DNA of 38,675 nt from Erysipelotrichaceae bacterium. GTDB taxonomy: Bacteria > Bacillota_I > Bacilli_A > RFN20 > CAG-631. Where the stretch lies: contig JALEMY010000024.1 in NCBI GenBank assembly GCA_022767485.1, forward strand, positions 1 to 38,675. Direction: 5' to 3'. The position numbers and the translations under genes are program-made. Positions 1 through 22,488 of this stretch are shown one piece after another. The notes beneath the pieces are model-generated. The model searched no databases, was not told the origin of the DNA, and saw nothing but the letters and a program-made list of their open reading frames with translations. The number at the start of each line of letters is the position of its first letter. The stretch's first letter is position 1.

Positions 1-3000
1 AATATTTCATTACCTTCAAGTGTTAATTATATTGGTGATAGAGCATTTTCAGAAAGTGGTTTAGAAAGTTTTACTGTTAATGAAAATACTACTCATCTTG
101 GAGAAGGTATATTTGCATATTGTGATAATCTTACTACATTAGATGTTGAAGAAGGAAATAGTGTTTATTCTTCAACTAATAATGTAATTTATTATACAAA
201 TGAGAATAATAAAAAGGTATTATATTGTCATGCTTCAGGCATCGATGATGATTTTATTGTACCAAATGATGTTTATATTATTGATATGTATGCTTTTGCA
301 GGTTGCAATATGCAACATGTTACATTAAATGAAGGATTAAATGAAATTAAAAATGATGCATTTTCAAAGTGTAATGATTTAGTTGAAATTGTCTTTCCTC
401 AAAGTTTAGAGACTATAGGTGTACGGGCATTTGAATCCTGTACATCTCTTGGCGATATAGTAATAACAAGAAATATAATCAATTTATCTAGACATGCATT
501 TTGTTATGACTATAATATTAAAAACATTACTATTGAAGAAGGAAGTAAACTAAGTCGTCTTGGAAGTGGTGTTTTTGGCTATACAGGTATTACGAGTTTT
601 ACTATTCCTTCAAACATAACAAGTATTGCTCAATATGCTTTTGAAGGATGTAATAATCTAAAAGAAGTAACTTTTGCAGAAGGAAATACTCTTGAAAGTA
701 TTTCTGCATACATGTTTGATGGAGCATATTCATTAGAAAGGATTACTTTTGCTAATGATAACAAAATAAAACATATACAAGCACGTGCCTTTTCTGGAAT
801 GTCTTCTTTAAAATACGTTAACTTTGAAGTGTTAACAAGTCTTGAAGAGATAGATAATTATGCTTTTTGGGGATGTTCTTCTTTAGAAAATGTCACTTTA
901 AATGAGGGATTAACATATATAGGAAGATATGCATTTACTGGATGTAAATTGCTAACTCGTATAGACATTCCAGAAAGCGTAGAGTATATAGGAAGATATG
1001 CTTTTTCTAGTTCATCACAATTAAATGTATATTTTAAGTCTGTTACATTACCGCAAAACTTACAAGATAATTGGGATTATGGAATTCGTGGATTTTACGT
1101 TGGCGTTTTAGAAGTCTTTGAAAACGGAGATTTTAGTTACGCTTTATTAAGTGATGATACGATTTCTTTAGTAAAATACTTAGGAAGTGAAACTTCACTT
1201 GATATATCAACAATTGATGGAAAAATTGTTTCAGCAATTGGTGGTTATGCTTTTTATGAAAACACGACACTTCAAAGTATTACACTACCTAATACAATCA
1301 ATGCTATATATAATTATGCTTTTGCAAAGACATCATCATTACAAAGCATAATTATTCCTAATGGAGTAAATGTAATTCATGATTATGCATTTTATCAAAG
1401 TGGAATTACTTCAATTAATCTTCCTTCATCTTTAAAAAAGATTGGAAAATATGCTTTTGCAGAAACTTCAAATTTAAATAGTGTAACTATTCCTAATACT
1501 GTAGAATATATAAATGATTATGCATTCTATCAAAGTAATATATCATCACTTACATTTGAAGAAAACAGTTCTTTATTAGAAATAGGTGAAAGTGCTTTTA
1601 TTAGTACAAAGATTACTTCTTTAAATATTCCTGATAGTGTCATTAGAATTCATGATAATGCATTTTATAATACTACTTTGCTATCTAGCTTAACACTAGG
1701 TAATGGAGAATTAAGAATTGATGCTAATGCTTTTTATAATAGTGGAATTACAGGAGAATTATATATTCCATCAACGACATATTACATAGGCGAGTTTTGC
1801 TTTGGATTAAATAGTAATTTAACAGCAATTAATGTGTCTGAAGATAATACATATTACGCTTCAGTTGATGGTGTTTTATATAAGAAAGATTTGTCTAGAC
1901 TTATTACTTGTCCTGGTGGAAAAGAAGGAAGTTTTACGATTGATAGCAGTATTCAAAGTATTGCTTTTGGGGCTTTTGAAGGAAGTAAATTATCTGAAAT
2001 TATTATTAGTGAAGATAGCAATCTAACTACAATTGGTTATCGTGCATTTTTAGCAATGAAAAATTTAAGAAGTATTACTATTCCTGATAATGTTTTATCA
2101 ATTGATTATTATGCTTTTGCATATTGTGAGAAATTGGAAGAAGTAAATATTTCTGAAAATAGTGAAATTAGTGGAATTTATGAAGGAGCTTTTTATAATT
2201 GTTCTTCTTTACAAAGCTTTTATATTCCAAAAGGAATTCAAGAAATATCAGATTATGCATTTTATGGATGTACTTCATTAACTAGTGTTACTTACCATCC
2301 TGAATGTGAACTTAAAGGAATTTATAAATATGCTTTTTCTTATACTGGAATGAGTGAAATTATTCTTCCAGAAACTTTATTAGAAATTGGTGATTATGCA
2401 TTTGCTGATATGCCAAATATTACTATGAAAGAACTAAATATTCCATCAACTGTTGAAGAAATTGGCTTTGCAGCATTTAAAGGATGGAACACTCTTGAAA
2501 AAATGACGATTTCTAAAATGTACAACACCTTAGGATATTATTTTGGAGATAACAATTTATTTGATGATTTTATTTATGTTCCTGACACGCTGCTTTATGT
2601 TTCGATTATTGGTGGCAATTTTATTCCTGCTTATGCATTTTATAAATGTAAAAATATAGAAATAATTCATATTTCACAAAGTATTACTATTATACTGCCA
2701 GAAGCTTTTGAAGGTCATAACGAGGATTTATTATTGTGCTTAGAATCAGATACTATACCAATTAATTATGCTGGCATGCCTAGTAATCTTTTGTTTGAAA
2801 TAACATCGCTTTGTGTCAATGATTCTTATATATATGTAATTGATAAAAGCGATAATGCCATAATTATTAAGTATATTGGTTCAGAAACCAATATTATTAT
2901 AAATGGAATAGATGGTCATGAAGTTTCTTATATCTATAAAAATGCATTTTATTTAAATTATAAAATAACTAGTGTTGAAATATTAGATAGTATAAAATCT

Positions 3001-6000
3001 ATTGATGATGCTGCTTTTAGTGGGTGTGAAGCATTAGTTAGTATTGTGTTGCCAGATGGTTTATTATCAATCGGTAGTAATGCTTTTAATATGTGTATTT
3101 CTTTGACAAGTATAGCAATACCAAATAGTGTAACAAGTATTGGAAAAAGTGTTTTTAATGGATGTAGTTCATTGTCTAATGTAGAAATGTCAAGCAGCAT
3201 TACTATCTTCGAAGAAAATGCTTTTAGAGGATGTAGTAGCTTAACAAGTATAACAATACCAGATGGTGTGACAAGTATTGGAAATAACGCATTTAATAGC
3301 TGTAGTTCATTAACTAATATTGTGATACCAGATACTGTAAAATATATTGGAAATTATACATTTTCTTCGTGCATAAATTTATATATATTATTTCAAAATG
3401 ATAATCTTCCTGAAAATCTTGGAGAAGAATGGAATGGAGGTAATGAGTATTTTCTTGGCGTTACCAAATTCGGAAAAAATGATTTATTTGTATATTTACT
3501 ATTTAATAATAATAGCGCTTTAATATTAAAATACATTGGTTCAGATAATGAAATTGAAATTGGGAAGATTGAAGAATGCGATGTTACAATTATTTATAAA
3601 GAAGCTTTTAGATCTTGTGTAAATTTGCAGAACATATCGTTTGGAAATAATAGTCAATTAACAAGCATAGGAGAATATGCATTTTATGGATGTAGTTCCC
3701 TAACAAGTATTACTATTCCAGATAGTGTAACAAGTATAGGAAGTGATGCATTTTCTGGCTGTAGTTCCTTAGCAAGTATAACAATTCCAAATAGTGTAAC
3801 AAGTATTGGAGATTTTGCATTCTGGGGATGTTGTTCCCTAACAAGTATTACTATTCCAAATAGTGTAACAAGTATTGGTAAAAGCACATTTAATAACTGT
3901 AGTTCCCTAACAAGTATCACTATTCCTAATAGTGTATCAAGTATTGGTGCTTCAGCATTTTCAGGCTGTAGTTCCTTAGCAAGCATCAACATTCCAGATG
4001 GTGTTACTAGTATAGGTGATTATGCATTTTCAAGATGTAGTTCCTTAGCAAGCATCAACATTCCAGATGGCGTTACAAGTATTGGAGCTTCTGCATTTTC
4101 AGGATGTTTTTACTTGATGAATGTGTCATTTGAAAGTAATAGTAGTTTATCAAGTATTGGAAATAGTGCATTTTCAGGATGTAGTTCCTTAGCAAGCATC
4201 AACATTCCAGATGGTGTTACTAGTATAGGTGATGATGCATTTTATTATTGTAGATCCTTAACAAGCATAACATTTCCAGATAGTGTAACAAGTATTGGTA
4301 ACAATGCTTTTGAAAATTGTGAAAATTTGACAAGTATTTTAATACCTGAAAGTGTAACGAGTATTGGTAACAATGCTTTTAGAGGAATTGTTAATTTAAT
4401 CATAATGTTGAAGTCTAATGAGTTGCCTGAGATGATTGGTGAAAATTGGAATGGGACAGGTAATTATTATTTGGGTATAAAACAACTTTCATCAAATGAA
4501 CATTATAAATATTTGATTAATAATTCTGATAATGCAATTATTTTAGAATATATTGGCACAAACACAGATATTATAATAAATAACATCGATGGTTATAGTG
4601 TATCAACTATTGGTGAGAAAGCTTTTTATGGATGTAGAGACATTACTAGGGTAACTTTACCTAGTGATTTAAATACGATTATGGATAATGCTTTTGAAAA
4701 TTGTTATAATTTGACAAGTATTTTAATACCTGAAAGTGTAACGAGTATTGGTAACAATGCTTTTTACAGGTGCAATAATTTAACTATTGGATTTAAGTCC
4801 AATAATTTGCCAGAAAATCTTGGTGAAAATTGGAACGGAGGAAGAAGGTATTTTTTAGGAATAAAGCTAATATCTTCAAATGAACAATTTAATTATATTA
4901 TAGATAATTCCGATAATGCAGTTATTTTGAAATATATTGGCACAAACACGGAAATCATTATAGATAAAATCGATGATTATAGTGTTAGTACTATTTCTGC
5001 TTATGCTTTTAAAGACTGTACAGATATTGTAAGCATAAATATGTCTAATAGTGTAATATTTATTGATGAATTCGCTTTTGATGGTTGTAGTAGTTTAACA
5101 AGTATCGTATTATCGAGAAATATTACCAATATTGATTCTTATTTGTTTGGAAATTGTAGTAGTCTAATAAGCGTTGATATACCTGACAGTGTAACAAGTA
5201 TTGGTTATGGTGCATTTTCAGGATGTAGTTCATTAACAAGTATTTCAATTCCAGATAGTGTAACAAGTATTGAAGTGAGTGCATTTTCAGGATGTAGTTC
5301 ATTAACAAGTATAACAATTCCAAATAGTGTAAAAAGTATTGGAGCGAGTGCATTTTCAAGATGTAGTTCCTTAGAAAGCATAGTATTACCAGAATCTATG
5401 TCAACTATTTCATCTTATTTATTTAAAGGATGCAGCAGTTTAACAAGTGTTTTTATACACGATAGTATTACGATAATAATGGATAATGCATTTAGTGAAT
5501 GCACTAATTTAAAAAGTATTAAAATATCTGATAGTGTTACAGCAATAGGTAATGAAGCATTTTATAATTGTAGTAACTTATCTAGTGTTAATTTCGGAAA
5601 TAATAGTAAATTATTGAGTATAGGAAACAATGCGTTTTATAAATGTGTGAATTTAAAAGAATTTGAAATACCTTTAAGTGTCGTATATATTTATGATTAT
5701 GCATTTAACAATTGCAGTAGTTTAACTAATATTAAAATACCTGAAGGAATAACAAACATTGGGAATGGAGTTTTTAATAATTGTAGCAGTTTAATTAATG
5801 TTGAAATACCTTCAACTGTTTTATCAATAGGAAACAGAGCATTTTATTTGTGTAGCAAATTAGATAATATTATATTACCAGAAAATGTATCAACAATTGG
5901 CAGTTATGCTTTTGGAGATTGTTCTAGTTTAAAAATTATTAGAGTATTAGGCTACCCATACATTAATGCTAATGCATTTTATAATGTTAAAGGAAATATT

Positions 6001-9000
6001 GTTTTTGAAAAGCATAAGGAAGAAGTTCCTAGCTGGGATACAAACTGGAATCAAGGATTTAAAGGAACAATCACATATTTATCTGATGAAAATTATCAAC
6101 CATTTTTTACAGATGGTTTGACATTTGCTTTATTAAAGAATGGAACATATAGTATAAATGGATATAATGGAACTGAATCAAAAGTAATAATTCCTAATAT
6201 TTATCAAGGATTATTTGTTACAAATATTGGTGTGAATGCTTTCAAAAACAACGTAAATATAGCATCTGTTACAATACCAAATAGTATAACAAGTATTGGA
6301 AATAGTGCATTTTCTGGCTGTGTTAACTTGATGAATGTGTCATTTGAAAGTAATAGTCGTTTATCAAGTATTGGAAATAGTGCATTTTCAGGATGTAGTT
6401 CCTTAGCAAGTATAACAATACCAAATAGTGTAACAAGTATTGGATCTTCTGCATTTGCTCAATGTAGTTCATTAGCAAGTATAACAATACCAAATAGTGT
6501 AACAAGTATTGGATATAGTGCATTTTATGAATGTGTTAACTTGATGAATGTGTCATTTGAAAGTAATAGTCGTTTATCAAGTATTGGAACTTCTACATTT
6601 TATTATTGTAGTTCTTTAGCAAGTATAACAATACCAAATAGTGTAACAAGTATTGGAGCTTCTGCATTTGAAAGATGTAGTTCCTTAGCAAGTATAACAA
6701 TTCCAAATAGTGTTGCAAGTATTGGAGCTTCTGCATTTGATAGGTGTGTTAACTTGATGAATGTGTCATTTGAAAGTAATAGTCGTTTATCAAGTATTGG
6801 AAATGGAGCATTTTATGGATGTAGTTCCTTATCAAGTATAACAATTCCAAATAGTGTAACAAGTATTGGAGCTTATGCATTTGAAGGATGTAGTTCCTTA
6901 GCAAGCATCAACATTCCAGATGGTGTTACTAGTATAGGTGATTATGCATTTTATGATTGTGAAAAATTAAAGATAATGCAAATTCCTGAATCAGTAACAA
7001 GTATAGGTGATTATGCATTTAATTATTGCTTAAGATTGAGCATAGGATTCAAATCCAAGCAACTACCTAATTCACTTGGTATCGAGTGGAATAATGGTAC
7101 AGAGTATTATCTAGGCATTATTGAAATTAATGCTAATGATCAATACAAATACATATTAAAAGAGAACAACCAATTAGAAATAATTCGATTTATTGGTGAT
7201 GAATCTATAATATCTATTGAAAGGATTAACGGAATCAATGTAACAAGCATTGGTAAAAATGCATTTGAGGAGTGCTACAATTTGAAAGTCATTGTAATAT
7301 CAGAAACTGTGACGAATATTGATGCAAATGCTTTTGAACAAGGCAGTCGGATTAAAATTTGTTTTAAATCAGAGCAATTACCTGAGTCTCTCAGTGGTAA
7401 TTCGAAATTTGATAATGAGTATTTTTTAGGTGTTAAAGATTATATAAATGATTCAATGTTTGAATATTTAGTTTATAAAGATGGGAATGTAGTTATATTT
7501 AAATATATTGGATCAGAAAATAGAATTGAGATAGGGGATTTAGATGGAAATAGTGTAACATCAATATATGAATATGCATTTTCAGATTGCAGCAATCTAA
7601 CTAGTATTATAATACCAAAGTCTGTTACAAATATTGGTGCATATGCATTTGATAAATGTAGCAATTTAATAATAGGATTTGAGGGAGAAACATTGCCTGA
7701 AAAACTTGGCAATAGTTGGAACGGAAATAGAAAGTATTATTTTGAAGTTCAAAGATGTAACGTATACGATAATATAGAATATTTTGTCACATATTCAAAT
7801 ACAATTATTGTCATTGGTGTTTGTGATAAAGAAATGGAATATATTTATATTCCAGATAAAATAGAAGAAATGCCTGTAACAATAATTTATGAAAATCTTT
7901 TCTTAAGTTGCACGTTATTAAAATATTTACGTTTACCTGTTATAACATACAATGCTTTTCCTGATACTCTACGTCAGTTAATTCTATCATCATGTGTGGA
8001 TTCGATTACTGATTTTTCTTCTTCTGCTGAAAATGTTTTAGAAATATATTGTTATCAAGATAGAAACAATTGTGAGTGGGAATATATTTGGAAAGACAAT
8101 TGCATTTCATACTTTTTAAACGAGTGGAATGAAGCTGTTTTCCACGATTATAAAGGAAATATATTAGCTTTCTCAGCATATAAAAGTAGTGAAATATTAA
8201 GAGTTCCAGCAGATCTTTTACTCGAAGTAAATGAGGAACACTATATATACAGTTTTATTGGTTGGGATATTAATAACGATGGTGTTGCAGATACATTGCC
8301 TGCAATTCTAAAAGGAAAAATAATTGCTTATCCACTTTATGAAGTGACTTGTAAACATGATATTATAGAATGGGTAATTGACATAGAACCATATTGTGTT
8401 ACAACAGGATTAAAACATAAAGAATGTTCAGTTTGTGGTGAAATGTTTGAAAAAGAAGTACTAGCAGCACTTGGTCATTCTCATGCAGATGCAGTCGAAG
8501 AAAATAGAGTAGAAGCAACATGTTTAGAAACAGGATATTATGAAAGCGTTGTTTACTGTAGCGTATGTGGTGAAGAATTATCAAGAACTGAAATTACTCT
8601 TGATGCACTAGACCATGATTTAATACATCATGAAGCAGTTGCACCAACATGTACAGAAATTGGATGGAATAAATATGATACATGTAGTAGATGTGACTAT
8701 TCTACTTATGTAGAACTAGCAGCAATCGGTCATACTCATGCAGATGCAGTAGAAGAAAATAGAGTAGAACCTACATGTTTGGAAACAGGACATTATGATA
8801 GCGTTGTATACTGTAGTGTATGTGGCGAAGAATTATCAAGAACTGAAATTACTCTTGATGCACTTGGTCATACTTCTTCAGAAGTTGTAGAAGAAAATAG
8901 ATTAGAACCTACATGTTTAGAAGCAGGACATTATGATAGTGTTGTATACTGTAGTGCATGTGGCGAAGAATTATCAAGAACTGAAATTATACTTGAAGCT

Positions 9001-10254
9001 TTAGGTCATACTCCTGCAGAAGCTGTAGAAGAAAATAGATTAGAACCTACATGTTTAGAAGCAGGACATTATGATAGCGGTGTTTACTGGAGTGTATGTG
9101 GTGAAGAATTATCAAGAACTGAAAGTGCTCTTGATGCACTTGGTCATGATTTAACACATCATGAAGCAAAAGCACCAACATGTACAGAAATAGGTTGGGA
9201 AGCATATGATACTTGTTCTCGTTGTGATTATTCTACTTATAATGAACTTTCTGCTTTAGGTCATACTCCTGCAGAAGCAGCAGAAGAAAATAGAGTAGAA
9301 CCTACATGTTTAGAAGTAGGACATTATGATAGCGTTGTTTACTGTAGTGTATGTGGTGAAGAATTATCAAGAAGTGTAATTATTCTTGAAGCACTAGGAC
9401 ATGATTTAACACATCATGAAGCAAAAGATGCAACATGTACAGAAATCGGATGGGAAGCATATGATACTTGCTCACGTTGTGATTATTCAACTTATAATGA
9501 ACTTTCTGCTTTAGGTCATACTCCTGCAGAAGCTGTAGAAGAAAATAGAGTAGAACCTACATGTTTGGAAACAGGACATTATGAGAGTGTTGTATACTGT
9601 AGTGTATGTGGTGAAGAATTATCAAGAACAGAAATCACACTTGAAGCTTTAGGACATGATTTAACACATCATGAAGCAAAAGATGCAACATGTACAGAAA
9701 AAGGCTGGAATGAATATTATACATGTAGTAGATGTGATTATTCTACTTATAACGAGATTTCTGCTTTAGGTCATACTCCTGCAGAAGCAGTAGAAGAAAA
9801 TAAAGTAGAAGCAACATGCTTAGATAAGGGACATTATGATAGCGTTGTATATTGTAGTGTATGTGGCGAAGAATTATCAAGAAGTGTAATTATTCTTGAA
9901 GCACTAGGTCATAAATATGACTTTGATAATATTTCTTGGAGTTTTGCTGATGATTACTCATCTGCTATTGCAACATTAACTTGTTTTACTGATAATACTC
10001 ATGTGCTTGAAGTAGTTGCAAATATTACTTCATCAACAAATGAAGAAGGAAAAATAGTATATACAGCAACTGCTGAAATTGCTGGTAAGATCTATAGTTA
10101 TGAAAAGATAGTTGATGCACCAAATGATAATAAGATTGATTTTGGTTGTAATGGTATGGTTAATGAAAGTTCAGTTGCAGGAAATATTGTATTAGTATTA
10201 GTAGCATTTATTATTGCACTTATTAAAAGACGTAAAAGTAAAATGCTAGGATAA
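1..10254 (+). CDS. Giant BspA-like LRR_5 surface protein (5' end outside window)
   Basis: The reading frame is open from base 1, so the start lies upstream; 3417 residues are visible. Residues 1 to about 2660 are leucine-rich repeats of the BspA/LRR_5 type, about 23 residues each, with the core SLTSITIPDSVTSIG followed by AF and C. Nine non-LRR modules of about 65 residues interrupt them. Bases 8118-8343 (ending FIGWDINNDGVADTLP) resemble an InlB B-repeat. Bases 8350-9912 hold Cys-rich repeats. The tail has FGCNG, a hydrophobic stretch and RRK at the extreme C-terminus, which suggests membrane anchoring; no LPXTG motif is seen. BspA-type proteins are surface adhesins in other bacteria, so host or microbe attachment is likely here but inferred. 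A hairpin terminator follows the stop directly. The next gene has its own promoter, so this gene ends its transcription unit. Confidence 0.93.
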   Translation, partial: NISLPSSVNYIGDRAFSESGLESFTVNENTTHLGEGIFAYCDNLTTLDVEEGNSVYSSTNNVIYYTNENNKKVLYCHASGIDDDFIVPNDVYIIDMYAFAGCNMQHVTLNEGLNEIKNDAFSKCNDLVEIVFPQSLETIGVRAFESCTSLGDIVITRNIINLSRHAFCYDYNIKNITIEEGSKLSRLGSGVFGYTGITSFTIPSNITSIAQYAFEGCNNLKEVTFAEGNTLESISAYMFDGAYSLERITFANDNKIKHIQARAFSGMSSLKYVNFEVLTSLEEIDNYAFWGCSSLENVTLNEGLTYIGRYAFTGCKLLTRIDIPESVEYIGRYAFSSSSQLNVYFKSVTLPQNLQDNWDYGIRGFYVGVLEVFENGDFSYALLSDDTISLVKYLGSETSLDISTIDGKIVSAIGGYAFYENTTLQSITLPNTINAIYNYAFAKTSSLQSIIIPNGVNVIHDYAFYQSGITSINLPSSLKKIGKYAFAETSNLNSVTIPNTVEYINDYAFYQSNISSLTFEENSSLLEIGESAFISTKITSLNIPDSVIRIHDNAFYNTTLLSSLTLGNGELRIDANAFYNSGITGELYIPSTTYYIGEFCFGLNSNLTAINVSEDNTYYASVDGVLYKKDLSRLITCPGGKEGSFTIDSSIQSIAFGAFEGSKLSEIIISEDSNLTTIGYRAFLAMKNLRSITIPDNVLSIDYYAFAYCEKLEEVNISENSEISGIYEGAFYNCSSLQSFYIPKGIQEISDYAFYGCTSLTSVTYHPECELKGIYKYAFSYTGMSEIILPETLLEIGDYAFADMPNITMKELNIPSTVEEIGFAAFKGWNTLEKMTISKMYNTLGYYFGDNNLFDDFIYVPDTLLYVSIIGGNFIPAYAFYKCKNIEIIHISQSITIILPEAFEGHNEDLLLCLESDTIPINYAGMPSNLLFEITSLCVNDSYIYVIDKSDNAIIIKYIGSETNIIINGIDGHEVSYIYKNAFYLNYKITSVEILDSIKSIDDAAFSGCEALVSIVLPDGLLSIGSNAFNMCISLTSIAIPNSVTSIGKSVFNGCSSLSNVEMSSSITIFEENAFRGCSSLTSITIPDGVTSIGNNAFNSCSSLTNIVIPDTVKYIGNYTFSSCINLYILFQNDNLPENLGEEWNGGNEYFLGVTKFGKNDLFVYLLFNNNSALILKYIGSDNEIEIGKIEECDVTIIYKEAFRSCVNLQNISFGNNSQLTSIGEYAFYGCSSLTSITIPDSVTSIGSDAFSGCSSLASITIPNSVTSIGDFAFWGCCSLTSITIPNSVTSIGKSTFNNCSSLTSITIPNSVSSIGASAFSGCSSLASINIPDGVTSIGDYAFSRCSSLASINIPDGVTSIGASAFSGCFYLMNVSFESNSSLSSIGNSAFSGCSSLASINIPDGVTSIGDDAFYYCRSLTSITFPDSVTSIGNNAFENCENLTSILIPESVTSIGNNAFRGIVNLIIMLKSNELPEMIGENWNGTGNYYLGIKQLSSNEHYKYLINNSDNAIILEYIGTNTDIIINNIDGYSVSTIGEKAFYGCRDITRVTLPSDLNTIMDNAFENCYNLTSILIPESVTSIGNNAFYRCNNLTIGFKSNNLPENLGENWNGGRRYFLGIKLISSNEQFNYIIDNSDNAVILKYIGTNTEIIIDKIDDYSVSTISAYAFKDCTDIVSINMSNSVIFIDEFAFDGCSSLTSIVLSRNITNIDSYLFGNCSSLISVDIPDSVTSIGYGAFSGCSSLTSISIPDSVTSIEVSAFSGCSSLTSITIPNSVKSIGASAFSRCSSLESIVLPESMSTISSYLFKGCSSLTSVFIHDSITIIMDNAFSECTNLKSIKISDSVTAIGNEAFYNCSNLSSVNFGNNSKLLSIGNNAFYKCVNLKEFEIPLSVVYIYDYAFNNCSSLTNIKIPEGITNIGNGVFNNCSSLINVEIPSTVLSIGNRAFYLCSKLDNIILPENVSTIGSYAFGDCSSLKIIRVLGYPYINANAFYNVKGNIVFEKHKEEVPSWDTNWNQGFKGTITYLSDENYQPFFTDGLTFALLKNGTYSINGYNGTESKVIIPNIYQGLFVTNIGVNAFKNNVNIASVTIPNSITSIGNSAFSGCVNLMNVSFESNSRLSSIGNSAFSGCSSLASITIPNSVTSIGSSAFAQCSSLASITIPNSVTSIGYSAFYECVNLMNVSFESNSRLSSIGTSTFYYCSSLASITIPNSVTSIGASAFERCSSLASITIPNSVASIGASAFDRCVNLMNVSFESNSRLSSIGNGAFYGCSSLSSITIPNSVTSIGAYAFEGCSSLASINIPDGVTSIGDYAFYDCEKLKIMQIPESVTSIGDYAFNYCLRLSIGFKSKQLPNSLGIEWNNGTEYYLGIIEINANDQYKYILKENNQLEIIRFIGDESIISIERINGINVTSIGKNAFEECYNLKVIVISETVTNIDANAFEQGSRIKICFKSEQLPESLSGNSKFDNEYFLGVKDYINDSMFEYLVYKDGNVVIFKYIGSENRIEIGDLDGNSVTSIYEYAFSDCSNLTSIIIPKSVTNIGAYAFDKCSNLIIGFEGETLPEKLGNSWNGNRKYYFEVQRCNVYDNIEYFVTYSNTIIVIGVCDKEMEYIYIPDKIEEMPVTIIYENLFLSCTLLKYLRLPVITYNAFPDTLRQLILSSCVDSITDFSSSAENVLEIYCYQDRNNCEWEYIWKDNCISYFLNEWNEAVFHDYKGNILAFSAYKSSEILRVPADLLLEVNEEHYIYSFIGWDINNDGVADTLPAILKGKIIAYPLYEVTCKHDIIEWVIDIEPYCVTTGLKHKECSVCGEMFEKEVLAALGHSHADAVEENRVEATCLETGYYESVVYCSVCGEELSRTEITLDALDHDLIHHEAVAPTCTEIGWNKYDTCSRCDYSTYVELAAIGHTHADAVEENRVEPTCLETGHYDSVVYCSVCGEELSRTEITLDALGHTSSEVVEENRLEPTCLEAGHYDSVVYCSACGEELSRTEIILEALGHTPAEAVEENRLEPTCLEAGHYDSGVYWSVCGEELSRTESALDALGHDLTHHEAKAPTCTEIGWEAYDTCSRCDYSTYNELSALGHTPAEAAEENRVEPTCLEVGHYDSVVYCSVCGEELSRSVIILEALGHDLTHHEAKDATCTEIGWEAYDTCSRCDYSTYNELSALGHTPAEAVEENRVEPTCLETGHYESVVYCSVCGEELSRTEITLEALGHDLTHHEAKDATCTEKGWNEYYTCSRCDYSTYNEISALGHTPAEAVEENKVEATCLDKGHYDSVVYCSVCGEELSRSVIILEALGHKYDFDNISWSFADDYSSAIATLTCFTDNTHVLEVVANITSSTNEEGKIVYTATAEIAGKIYSYEKIVDAPNDNKIDFGCNGMVNESSVAGNIVLVLVAFIIALIKRRKSKMLG
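6321..6959 (+). repeat. Three tandem 213-bp units inside the LRR region
   Basis: Copies begin at 6321, 6534 and 6747, exactly 213 bp (71 codons, three LRR_5 units) apart. Each starts with the same stretch of about 55 bases, encoding NLMNVSFESNSRLSSIG. Differences between copies fall mainly at the codons between SIG, AF and C. A related copy lies near 4110. This looks like recent intragenic duplication. Confidence 0.9.
8350..9912 (+). repeat. Cys-rich C-terminal repeat array (7 long and 4 short units)
   Basis: After a divergent first unit (CSVCGEMFEKEVLAALGH) there are seven 46-residue units containing PTCLETGHYDSVVYCSVCGE and four 39-residue units containing PTCTEIGWEAYDTCSRCDYS, all ending in LGH or a close variant. 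Each unit normally has three Cys: one lone Cys and a CxxC pair. In the fourth long unit the first Cys of the pair is Trp (TGG at 9088-9090). The spacing suggests metal-binding or disulfide knuckles in a stalk; that role is inferred. Confidence 0.88.
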
Positions 10255-21263: not shown

Positions 21264-21836
21264 ATGGGAGAAATTTTAATTCGCAGTATATTTTTAGCAA
21301 TTGCCTTAGCAATGGACGCTTTTGCTGTTTCTTTAAGCAATGGTTTGAAAGAACCTAATATGAGTAAAATTAAAATGATAGCCATTTGTTTTTCTTTTGG
21401 CTTTTTTCAATTATTAATGCCTTTTATTGGTTATTTATGTGGACATGCTATTATTAAATATATAGTTAAGTTTATTCCTTATATCGCTTTAATACTTCTT
21501 TTATTTTTAGGAATAAAAATGATTATTGAAGGAATCAAGAAAAATGATAAAGAAGAAAAAGAAATACGTAATATAACTTTCACCATAGTTATATTACAAT
21601 CGATTGCCACTAGTATTGATGCCTTGTCAACTGGTCTTACTTTTTCAAATTATACGATTAATCAAGCACTTATTTGTGTTAGTATAATCGGGATAATAAC
21701 TTTTATCATTTGCATATTTGGCTTTTATTTAGGGAAAAAAACAGGAGTGCTTTTTGCTAATAAAGCTGATATTATAGGTGGAGTTATTTTAATTATCATC
21801 GGACTTGATATTTTTCTTAAAGGGATTATTGGATAA
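21264..21836 (+). CDS. mntP: Manganese efflux pump MntP
   Basis: This 190-residue inner-membrane protein of the MntP (YebN) family has about six membrane helices in two related halves. Each half carries its acidic motif: LAMDAFAVSLSNG near the start and SIATSIDALSTGLTFSN in the middle. Family members export manganese. The chosen ATG at 21264 lies 10 bases after AAGGA. An alternative in-frame ATG at 21240 would overlap ybaK by 20 bases. No yybP-type manganese riboswitch is seen upstream. The stop codon overlaps the apparent start of the next gene. Confidence 0.93.
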   Translation: MGEILIRSIFLAIALAMDAFAVSLSNGLKEPNMSKIKMIAICFSFGFFQLLMPFIGYLCGHAIIKYIVKFIPYIALILLLFLGIKMIIEGIKKNDKEEKEIRNITFTIVILQSIATSIDALSTGLTFSNYTINQALICVSIIGIITFIICIFGFYLGKKTGVLFANKADIIGGVILIIIGLDIFLKGIIG

Positions 21837-22453
21837 AGGAATATAAAGGAATAGATCAAAAAATATGCAACACATTAATAGTTGAAAAAAGTAAATTTAT
21901 TACTTATCTTTTTCCATGTTCTTCAGAAGAGGAATTCAAAGAAATATTACAAGATATTAATGAAAAGTATCATGATGCAACTCATATTTGCTACGCATAT
22001 ATTTTATATAAAGATCAAAGTCTTGTTTATAAGGCAAATGATGATGGTGAGCCATCATCTACAGCAGGACTTCCGATGTTAAATGTTTTAAAAAAGAATG
22101 ATTTGATTAATGTTTCTTGCATTGCAATTCGTTATTTTGGAGGAATTAAGCTTGGAGCTGGGGGACTTACTAGAACTTATAGTAGTTGTGCTAGTGAAGC
22201 TTTAAAGAAAATTAATATTGTCACTTATTGCTCTTCTTATTTTTACGAGATAGATTTACCATATGATAAAATAAAAGACATAGAAAAAATATGTGAAAAC
22301 AATGGCTTTGAAATAAAAGAAAAATCTTTCGATTTATCTGTAAAATATAAAGTTTTGACAAAAGATAAAGAAAAATTTGAAAAAATCTTTTCGTCTATGG
22401 CTTATTTAAATATAAATTATCGTTATATTAGTTTTACTTACACGATAAAATGA
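21833..22453 (+). CDS. yigZ: YigZ/IMPACT family protein with an apparent AUA start
   Basis: The open frame, 206 residues from the ATA at 21833, matches YigZ throughout: KEYKGIDQK, VEKSKFITYLFPCSSEEEF, KYHDATHICYAY, ANDDGEPSSTAGLPML, and IAIRYFGGIKLGAGGLTRTY. The function of the family is not settled; it is linked to the IMPACT translation regulator fold. No ATG, GTG or TTG occurs in frame between the upstream stop at 21818 and the first conserved residues. The ATA overlaps the mntP stop as ATAA and lies 7 bases after AAAGGGA. An ATG at 22076 lies inside the conserved core and would remove the N-terminal 81 residues. Either the start is AUA or the gene has lost its start. Identity is firm; the start is uncertain. 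Confidence 0.8.
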   Translation: MKEYKGIDQKICNTLIVEKSKFITYLFPCSSEEEFKEILQDINEKYHDATHICYAYILYKDQSLVYKANDDGEPSSTAGLPMLNVLKKNDLINVSCIAIRYFGGIKLGAGGLTRTYSSCASEALKKINIVTYCSSYFYEIDLPYDKIKDIEKICENNGFEIKEKSFDLSVKYKVLTKDKEKFEKIFSSMAYLNINYRYISFTYTIK

Positions 22454-22458
22454 AAAAG

Positions 22459-22488
22459 TATGCGATGTGTAAATCGTGTATTTTTTTT
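22459..22488 (+). terminator. Terminator after yigZ
   Basis: An 8-bp stem TATGCGAT / ATCGTGTA with two G-T pairs, loop GTGTAA, then eight T. An alternative stem uses TACACGAT upstream with the same 3' arm. Confidence 0.8.

Follow-up and report, generated by a model that had tools for sequence, protein, structure and literature searches.

The window analysed here, the whole stretch of 38,675 nucleotides, carries in order the genes of an ABC transporter (solute-binding protein family 3, permease and ATPase), a gene with a YbaK-like tRNA-editing domain, mntP, yigZ and a PEP carboxykinase gene. Our subject is the junction between mntP and yigZ, whose features are collected in Table 1. The product of the yigZ frame matches PF01205 (UPF0029) in Pfam with an E-value of 2.3e-37 and 127.7 bits against a cut-off of 27. 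On TIGR00257 (IMPACT_YIGZ, NCBIfam) it reaches 167.5 bits, which is 0.45 below the cut-off of 167.95, and its predicted family placement is that given by Pfam and by the orthologue alignment, not by the TIGR00257 equivalog.

Table 1. Features at the mntP–yigZ junction, in positions of the window.
Feature	Position	Strand	Remarks
mntP (putative Mn efflux pump)	21264..21836	+	Pfam Mntp PF02659, E 1e-42; stop TAA 21834-21836
Weak SD-like AAAGGGA	21819..21825	+	AAAGG pairs with the assumed anti-SD; duplex -5.7 kcal/mol
yigZ-family open frame (IMPACT/UPF0029)	21821..22453	+	210 codons between stops; first canonical start at 22076
TTG, proposed former yigZ start	21829..21831	+	Now opens a 5-codon frame ending at TAA 21844-21846
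ATA, candidate non-canonical yigZ start	21833..21835	+	18 codons before KSKF; overlaps the mntP stop as ATAA
Repeat copy 1, ATAAAGGAAT	21833..21842	+	Read from the sequence
Repeat copy 2, ATAAAGGAAT	21843..21852	+	Read from the sequence; identity runs on to 21853
ATA, second in-frame yigZ start candidate	21851..21853	+	12 codons before KSKF; preceded by copy-1 AAAGGA, aligned spacing 8

The missing start of yigZ and the tandem repeat

A first-pass annotation had described yigZ as having no ATG, GTG or TTG before its conserved N-terminus, and our reading of the frame confirms this. Within 21821-22453, 85 codons pass without any of these triplets in frame, and the first canonical start is the ATG at 22076, which is codon 86 of the open frame and lies inside the conserved domain. 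The annotation was also right, in letters as well as coordinates, about the ATA that overlaps the mntP stop as ATAA and about the AAAGGGA that precedes it. Two features had gone unremarked: a perfect 10-bp tandem repeat opens with the ATA at 21833, and a further ATA of the same frame follows at 21851 in a Shine-Dalgarno (SD) context that is equal or slightly better.

The repeat consists of two perfect, adjacent copies of ATAAAGGAAT (unit 10, 21833-21853) and lies exactly where the start of yigZ is missing. Its unit length is not a multiple of three, as in a frameshift by tandem duplication, and the mntP stop falls inside the first copy and is the same with one copy or two. Read with a single copy, the sequence runs TTG GAT AAA GGA ATA GAT CAA and onwards, which puts TTG 21829 in frame with yigZ, 16 codons before the KSKF motif. 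Read with both copies, as it stands at present, the frame of the same TTG stops after five codons.

To estimate the rarity of such an arrangement we made 20,000 dinucleotide shuffles of the 90-base stretch ahead of KSKF. An out-of-frame perfect tandem with a unit of 7-20 arose in 307 of them (5 with a unit of at least 10). The full combination, a sequence with no start as it stands but with a start at 14-19 codons once one repeat unit is taken away, arose in 7, and in 0 with a unit of at least 10. Across 168,327 bases of the genome (the window and 12 further stretches) there was one perfect tandem of unit 10, the ATAAAGGAAT pair itself, and there were three of units 10-20. Roughly estimated with a match of 0.3 per base, perfect tandems of unit 10-20 are about as frequent as chance expects in an AT-rich genome, and the case for a duplication therefore rests on the position of the repeat. 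It also counts against the duplication that the repeat was noticed after the fact.

Related yigZ loci and the state of the protein

For comparison we used 45 other YigZ loci, namely the best-scoring 29 of 55 other matching genomes and 16 loci of a second search. A canonical start stands 14-19 codons before the KSKF-like motif in all 45, with a mode of 15; distances were taken by script at 43 loci and by eye at L024 and L029, where the motif search of the script had landed elsewhere. Orthologous yigZ loci without a canonical start thus number 0 of 45, and the non-canonical start is not conserved in relatives. In the yigZ studied here the codons 14-19 before KSKF are TGG, ATA, AAG, GAA, TAT and AAA, the sole ATN codon being ATA 21833. 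By codon frequencies alone, the chance of an 85-codon gap without a canonical start is about 0.036, so that it is the comparison with orthologues, and not the gap, that gives the observation its weight.

Within the genome itself, the sampled 168,327 bases hold 142 ORFs of at least 90 codons. In two of these the first 35 codons contain no canonical start. One is yigZ, with its 85 codons; the other runs antisense to a giant repeat gene (286-10254). Among the 142 sampled, yigZ is the only gene-like start-less ORF of its kind. The giant gene is a single ORF of 3322 aa with repeat arrays of units 69, 207-213, 384, 138 and 255 bases, and its product looks like a giant repetitive surface-type protein.

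The mntP–yigZ junction is young, since the pair is absent from a same-genus genome and from the 45 other loci. mntP adjoins yigZ in none of these 45, where some 0.4 to 2 kb upstream was covered; of 46 loci only the present one has the pair, and a conserved mntP–yigZ coupling was rejected. The family search covered four genomes, this one included. In the same-genus genome (G001), yigZ has an ATG start, follows and overlaps an HD-domain gene, and lies upstream of pckA as it does here; its mntP lies on a different contig from yigZ, and the gene after mntP has the opposite orientation. The same-genus genome has no mntP–yigZ junction, and there is consequently no ancestral ATGA to point to. The HD-domain gene of the sister species had no match in the present assembly, a weak result at 81% completeness and with no positive control. 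A scan found no intrinsic terminator between mntP and yigZ, and RNA structure at the junction, considered as a candidate feature, was dismissed as nothing notable (z +1.2). At the end of yigZ (22440-22488) an ACACGAT/ATCGTGT inverted repeat is followed by eight T, an arrangement that is terminator-like by eye and was unreported by the scan.

The YigZ core is intact. Among 43 other YigZ proteins, 23 columns are conserved to at least 95%, and the protein agrees with all 23; the short ORFs at L030 and L031 had been dropped before the count. To 42 outgroup sequences it has a mean identity of 0.353, against 0.355 for the sister species, so that evolution has been no faster than there. With the core intact and the two identities so near each other, the loss of the start is recent and any decay of yigZ very recent. 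In eight other genomes (G027, G028, G033, G034, G037, G039, G045 and G052) the YigZ match lies in an open frame of about 121-166 aa with a stop inside the match, and these are possibly shorter YigZ forms without the C-terminal domain.

Initiation signals and the proposed duplication

The assembly yielded no 16S gene, and SD contexts were therefore scored against the tail of a typical Bacillota 16S rRNA, which we take to represent the anti-SD of this organism. The AAAGG then stands at an aligned spacing of 2 from TTG 21829 and of 6 from ATA 21833. Aligned spacings in 43 scored ATG genes of this genome range from 4 to 11, and the 2 of TTG 21829 is unusually short. What precedes ATA 21833 is AAAGG only and not a strong or extended SD at normal distance; a duplex as strong as -5.7 kcal/mol occurs at 97 of 1049 internal ATA codons, and 14 of 132 chosen starts (a fraction of 0.106) have an SD weaker than this one. 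For ATA 21851, the AAAGGA of copy 1 gives a duplex of -6.0 kcal/mol and an SD score of 14, which equals the median of 54 unambiguous ATG genes. With spacings of 6 and 8 versus 2 for TTG, the predicted SD contexts would mildly favor the ATA codons over TTG, and they do so without singling out 21833.

The explanation that we favor, with a probability of roughly 0.6, is that a recent 10-bp tandem duplication at the mntP–yigZ junction shifted yigZ out of frame with its TTG start. We infer a former state with one copy of ATAAAGGAAT, in which TTG 21829 would have been the start of yigZ, overlapping the mntP stop by 8 bases. Duplication of the unit would have moved yigZ out of frame with this TTG while keeping the mntP stop, and in the two-copy state ribosomes setting out from TTG 21829 would terminate after five codons. 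At present, full-length YigZ would come only from weak initiation at one of the two AUA codons, 21833 or 21851, for which ribosomes finishing mntP might be the source; failing this, yigZ would be off.

The position of the repeat, its effect on the frame and its rarity in shuffled sequence together argue for the duplication as the cause of the missing start. Against this reading, TTG is rare as a start in this genome (5 of 132 chosen starts). The arrangement resembles an ordinary tandem-duplication frameshift in its perfect two-copy direct repeat, its unit indivisible by three and its intact neighbour; it differs from one in that the unit is SD-like and also puts AAAGGA before an in-frame AUA. 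A literature search on 10-bp or short tandem duplications in bacteria gave nothing, and the same junction had 0 matches in viral contigs. The first-pass annotation had derived the junction from one G-to-A change in a coupled ATGA. That origin is probably wrong, since the perfect 10-bp duplication by itself removes TTG from the frame, and for ATA 21833 we consider G-to-A less likely than duplication. Both of the outcomes that the annotation had foreseen, AUA initiation and early decay of yigZ, are still live. Most likely, the loss of the yigZ start reflects a small local mutation, or possibly an assembly variant, and is not proof of exotic initiation.

Alternative accounts and AUA starts elsewhere

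Another account is an artefact: the cells would carry a single copy, and the extra one would be an error or a variant present in a minority. Short-read assemblies seldom contain false duplications of 10 bp, which speaks against it. Such an artefact is rather improbable in our view, even though the genome is broken into 180 contigs (completeness 81.49%, probably metagenome-derived) and a single base-exact event breaks an otherwise sound yigZ. The other gene-like ORFs among the 142 sampled show no comparable case, so the assembly does not seem to be generally start-broken. We regard as highly improbable a -1 or +1 ribosomal frameshift joining mntP, or the mini-frame of TTG, to yigZ. The yigZ frame does open 13 bases before the mntP stop, but no slippery heptamer was seen by eye in 21819-21846, and such an account has to contend with the lack of notable RNA structure and with the absence of the gene pair from the 45 other loci.

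AUA is a poor start codon that could in principle serve yigZ; how all 64 codons fare in initiation was the subject of Hecht et al. in 2017. True AUA initiation at 21833, arising by G-to-A or present from the outset and fed by mntP termination-reinitiation on AUAA, nevertheless strikes us as unlikely. In its favor, ATA 21833 lies within the orthologue range of distances to KSKF and has an aligned spacing that is ordinary for genes of this genome; another of these genes, infC, has an SD at none of its canonical start candidates and probably begins at ATT. Real AUA starts are described for S. aureus infC and ccpN (PMC13009471), and termination-reinitiation coupling on 4-base AUGA overlaps is established (PMC6728339). 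However, the S. aureus sites are reported to have extended SDs (PMC13009471), whereas that of ATA 21833 is weak. Moreover, this account makes the perfect repeat a coincidence, and yigZ of the same-genus genome starts at ATG after another gene.

The likeness to the S. aureus genes (PMC13009471) is that of an AUA preceded by an SD-like sequence, the genome being AT-rich in both cases. Apart from the strength of the SD, the two cases differ in that the non-canonical start of ccpN is conserved between species, while the site at yigZ is unique among 46 loci. The ATGA overlaps treated in PMC6728339 share with mntP–yigZ the geometry of a 4-base stop/start overlap; unlike them, mntP–yigZ has AUAA, and its proposed one-copy form would be an 8-base overlap with TTG. 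A further paper on translational coupling gave nothing on weak starts.

AUA 21851 might instead be the working start, the duplication having set AAAGGA at a normal distance and so made a new, weaker site. We hold this to be a slim prospect: its median-strength SD and aligned spacing of 8 favor it, but it stands closer to KSKF than the start of any of the 45 orthologues (minimum 14), and in S. aureus reporters AUA gave less than AUG (PMC13009471). There is a similarly small chance that the duplication rewired yigZ. By copying the SD-like AAAGGA together with ATA, it could have led to low-level YigZ made from AUA by ribosomes arriving from the mntP stop, while slippage between the one-copy and two-copy states would let the population alternate between the TTG start and an AUA start. 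If AUA is used, a start site would have been made in one step by duplicating an SD-like unit. Returning to the frame-shifting duplication that we prefer, its wider meaning is that a tiny tandem duplication can leave behind what looks like an AUA start, and that this should be checked before non-canonical initiation is claimed.

Loss of IF3 was considered as a cause of lax start choice and rejected, as infC is present. At infC (L076:1447-1485, contig C52 of this genome, G000) there is no canonical start with an SD, and an ATT after AAGAAGGTATC is the likely start. Duplex energies are +2.8 kcal/mol for the ATG at L076:1483, -10.3 for ATT 1450 and -10.8 for ATT 1453. Because these ATT codons have an SD, ATN starts other than AUG are probably already in use in this genome. 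In the relatives at L074 and L077, the start of infC is arranged in the same kind of way.
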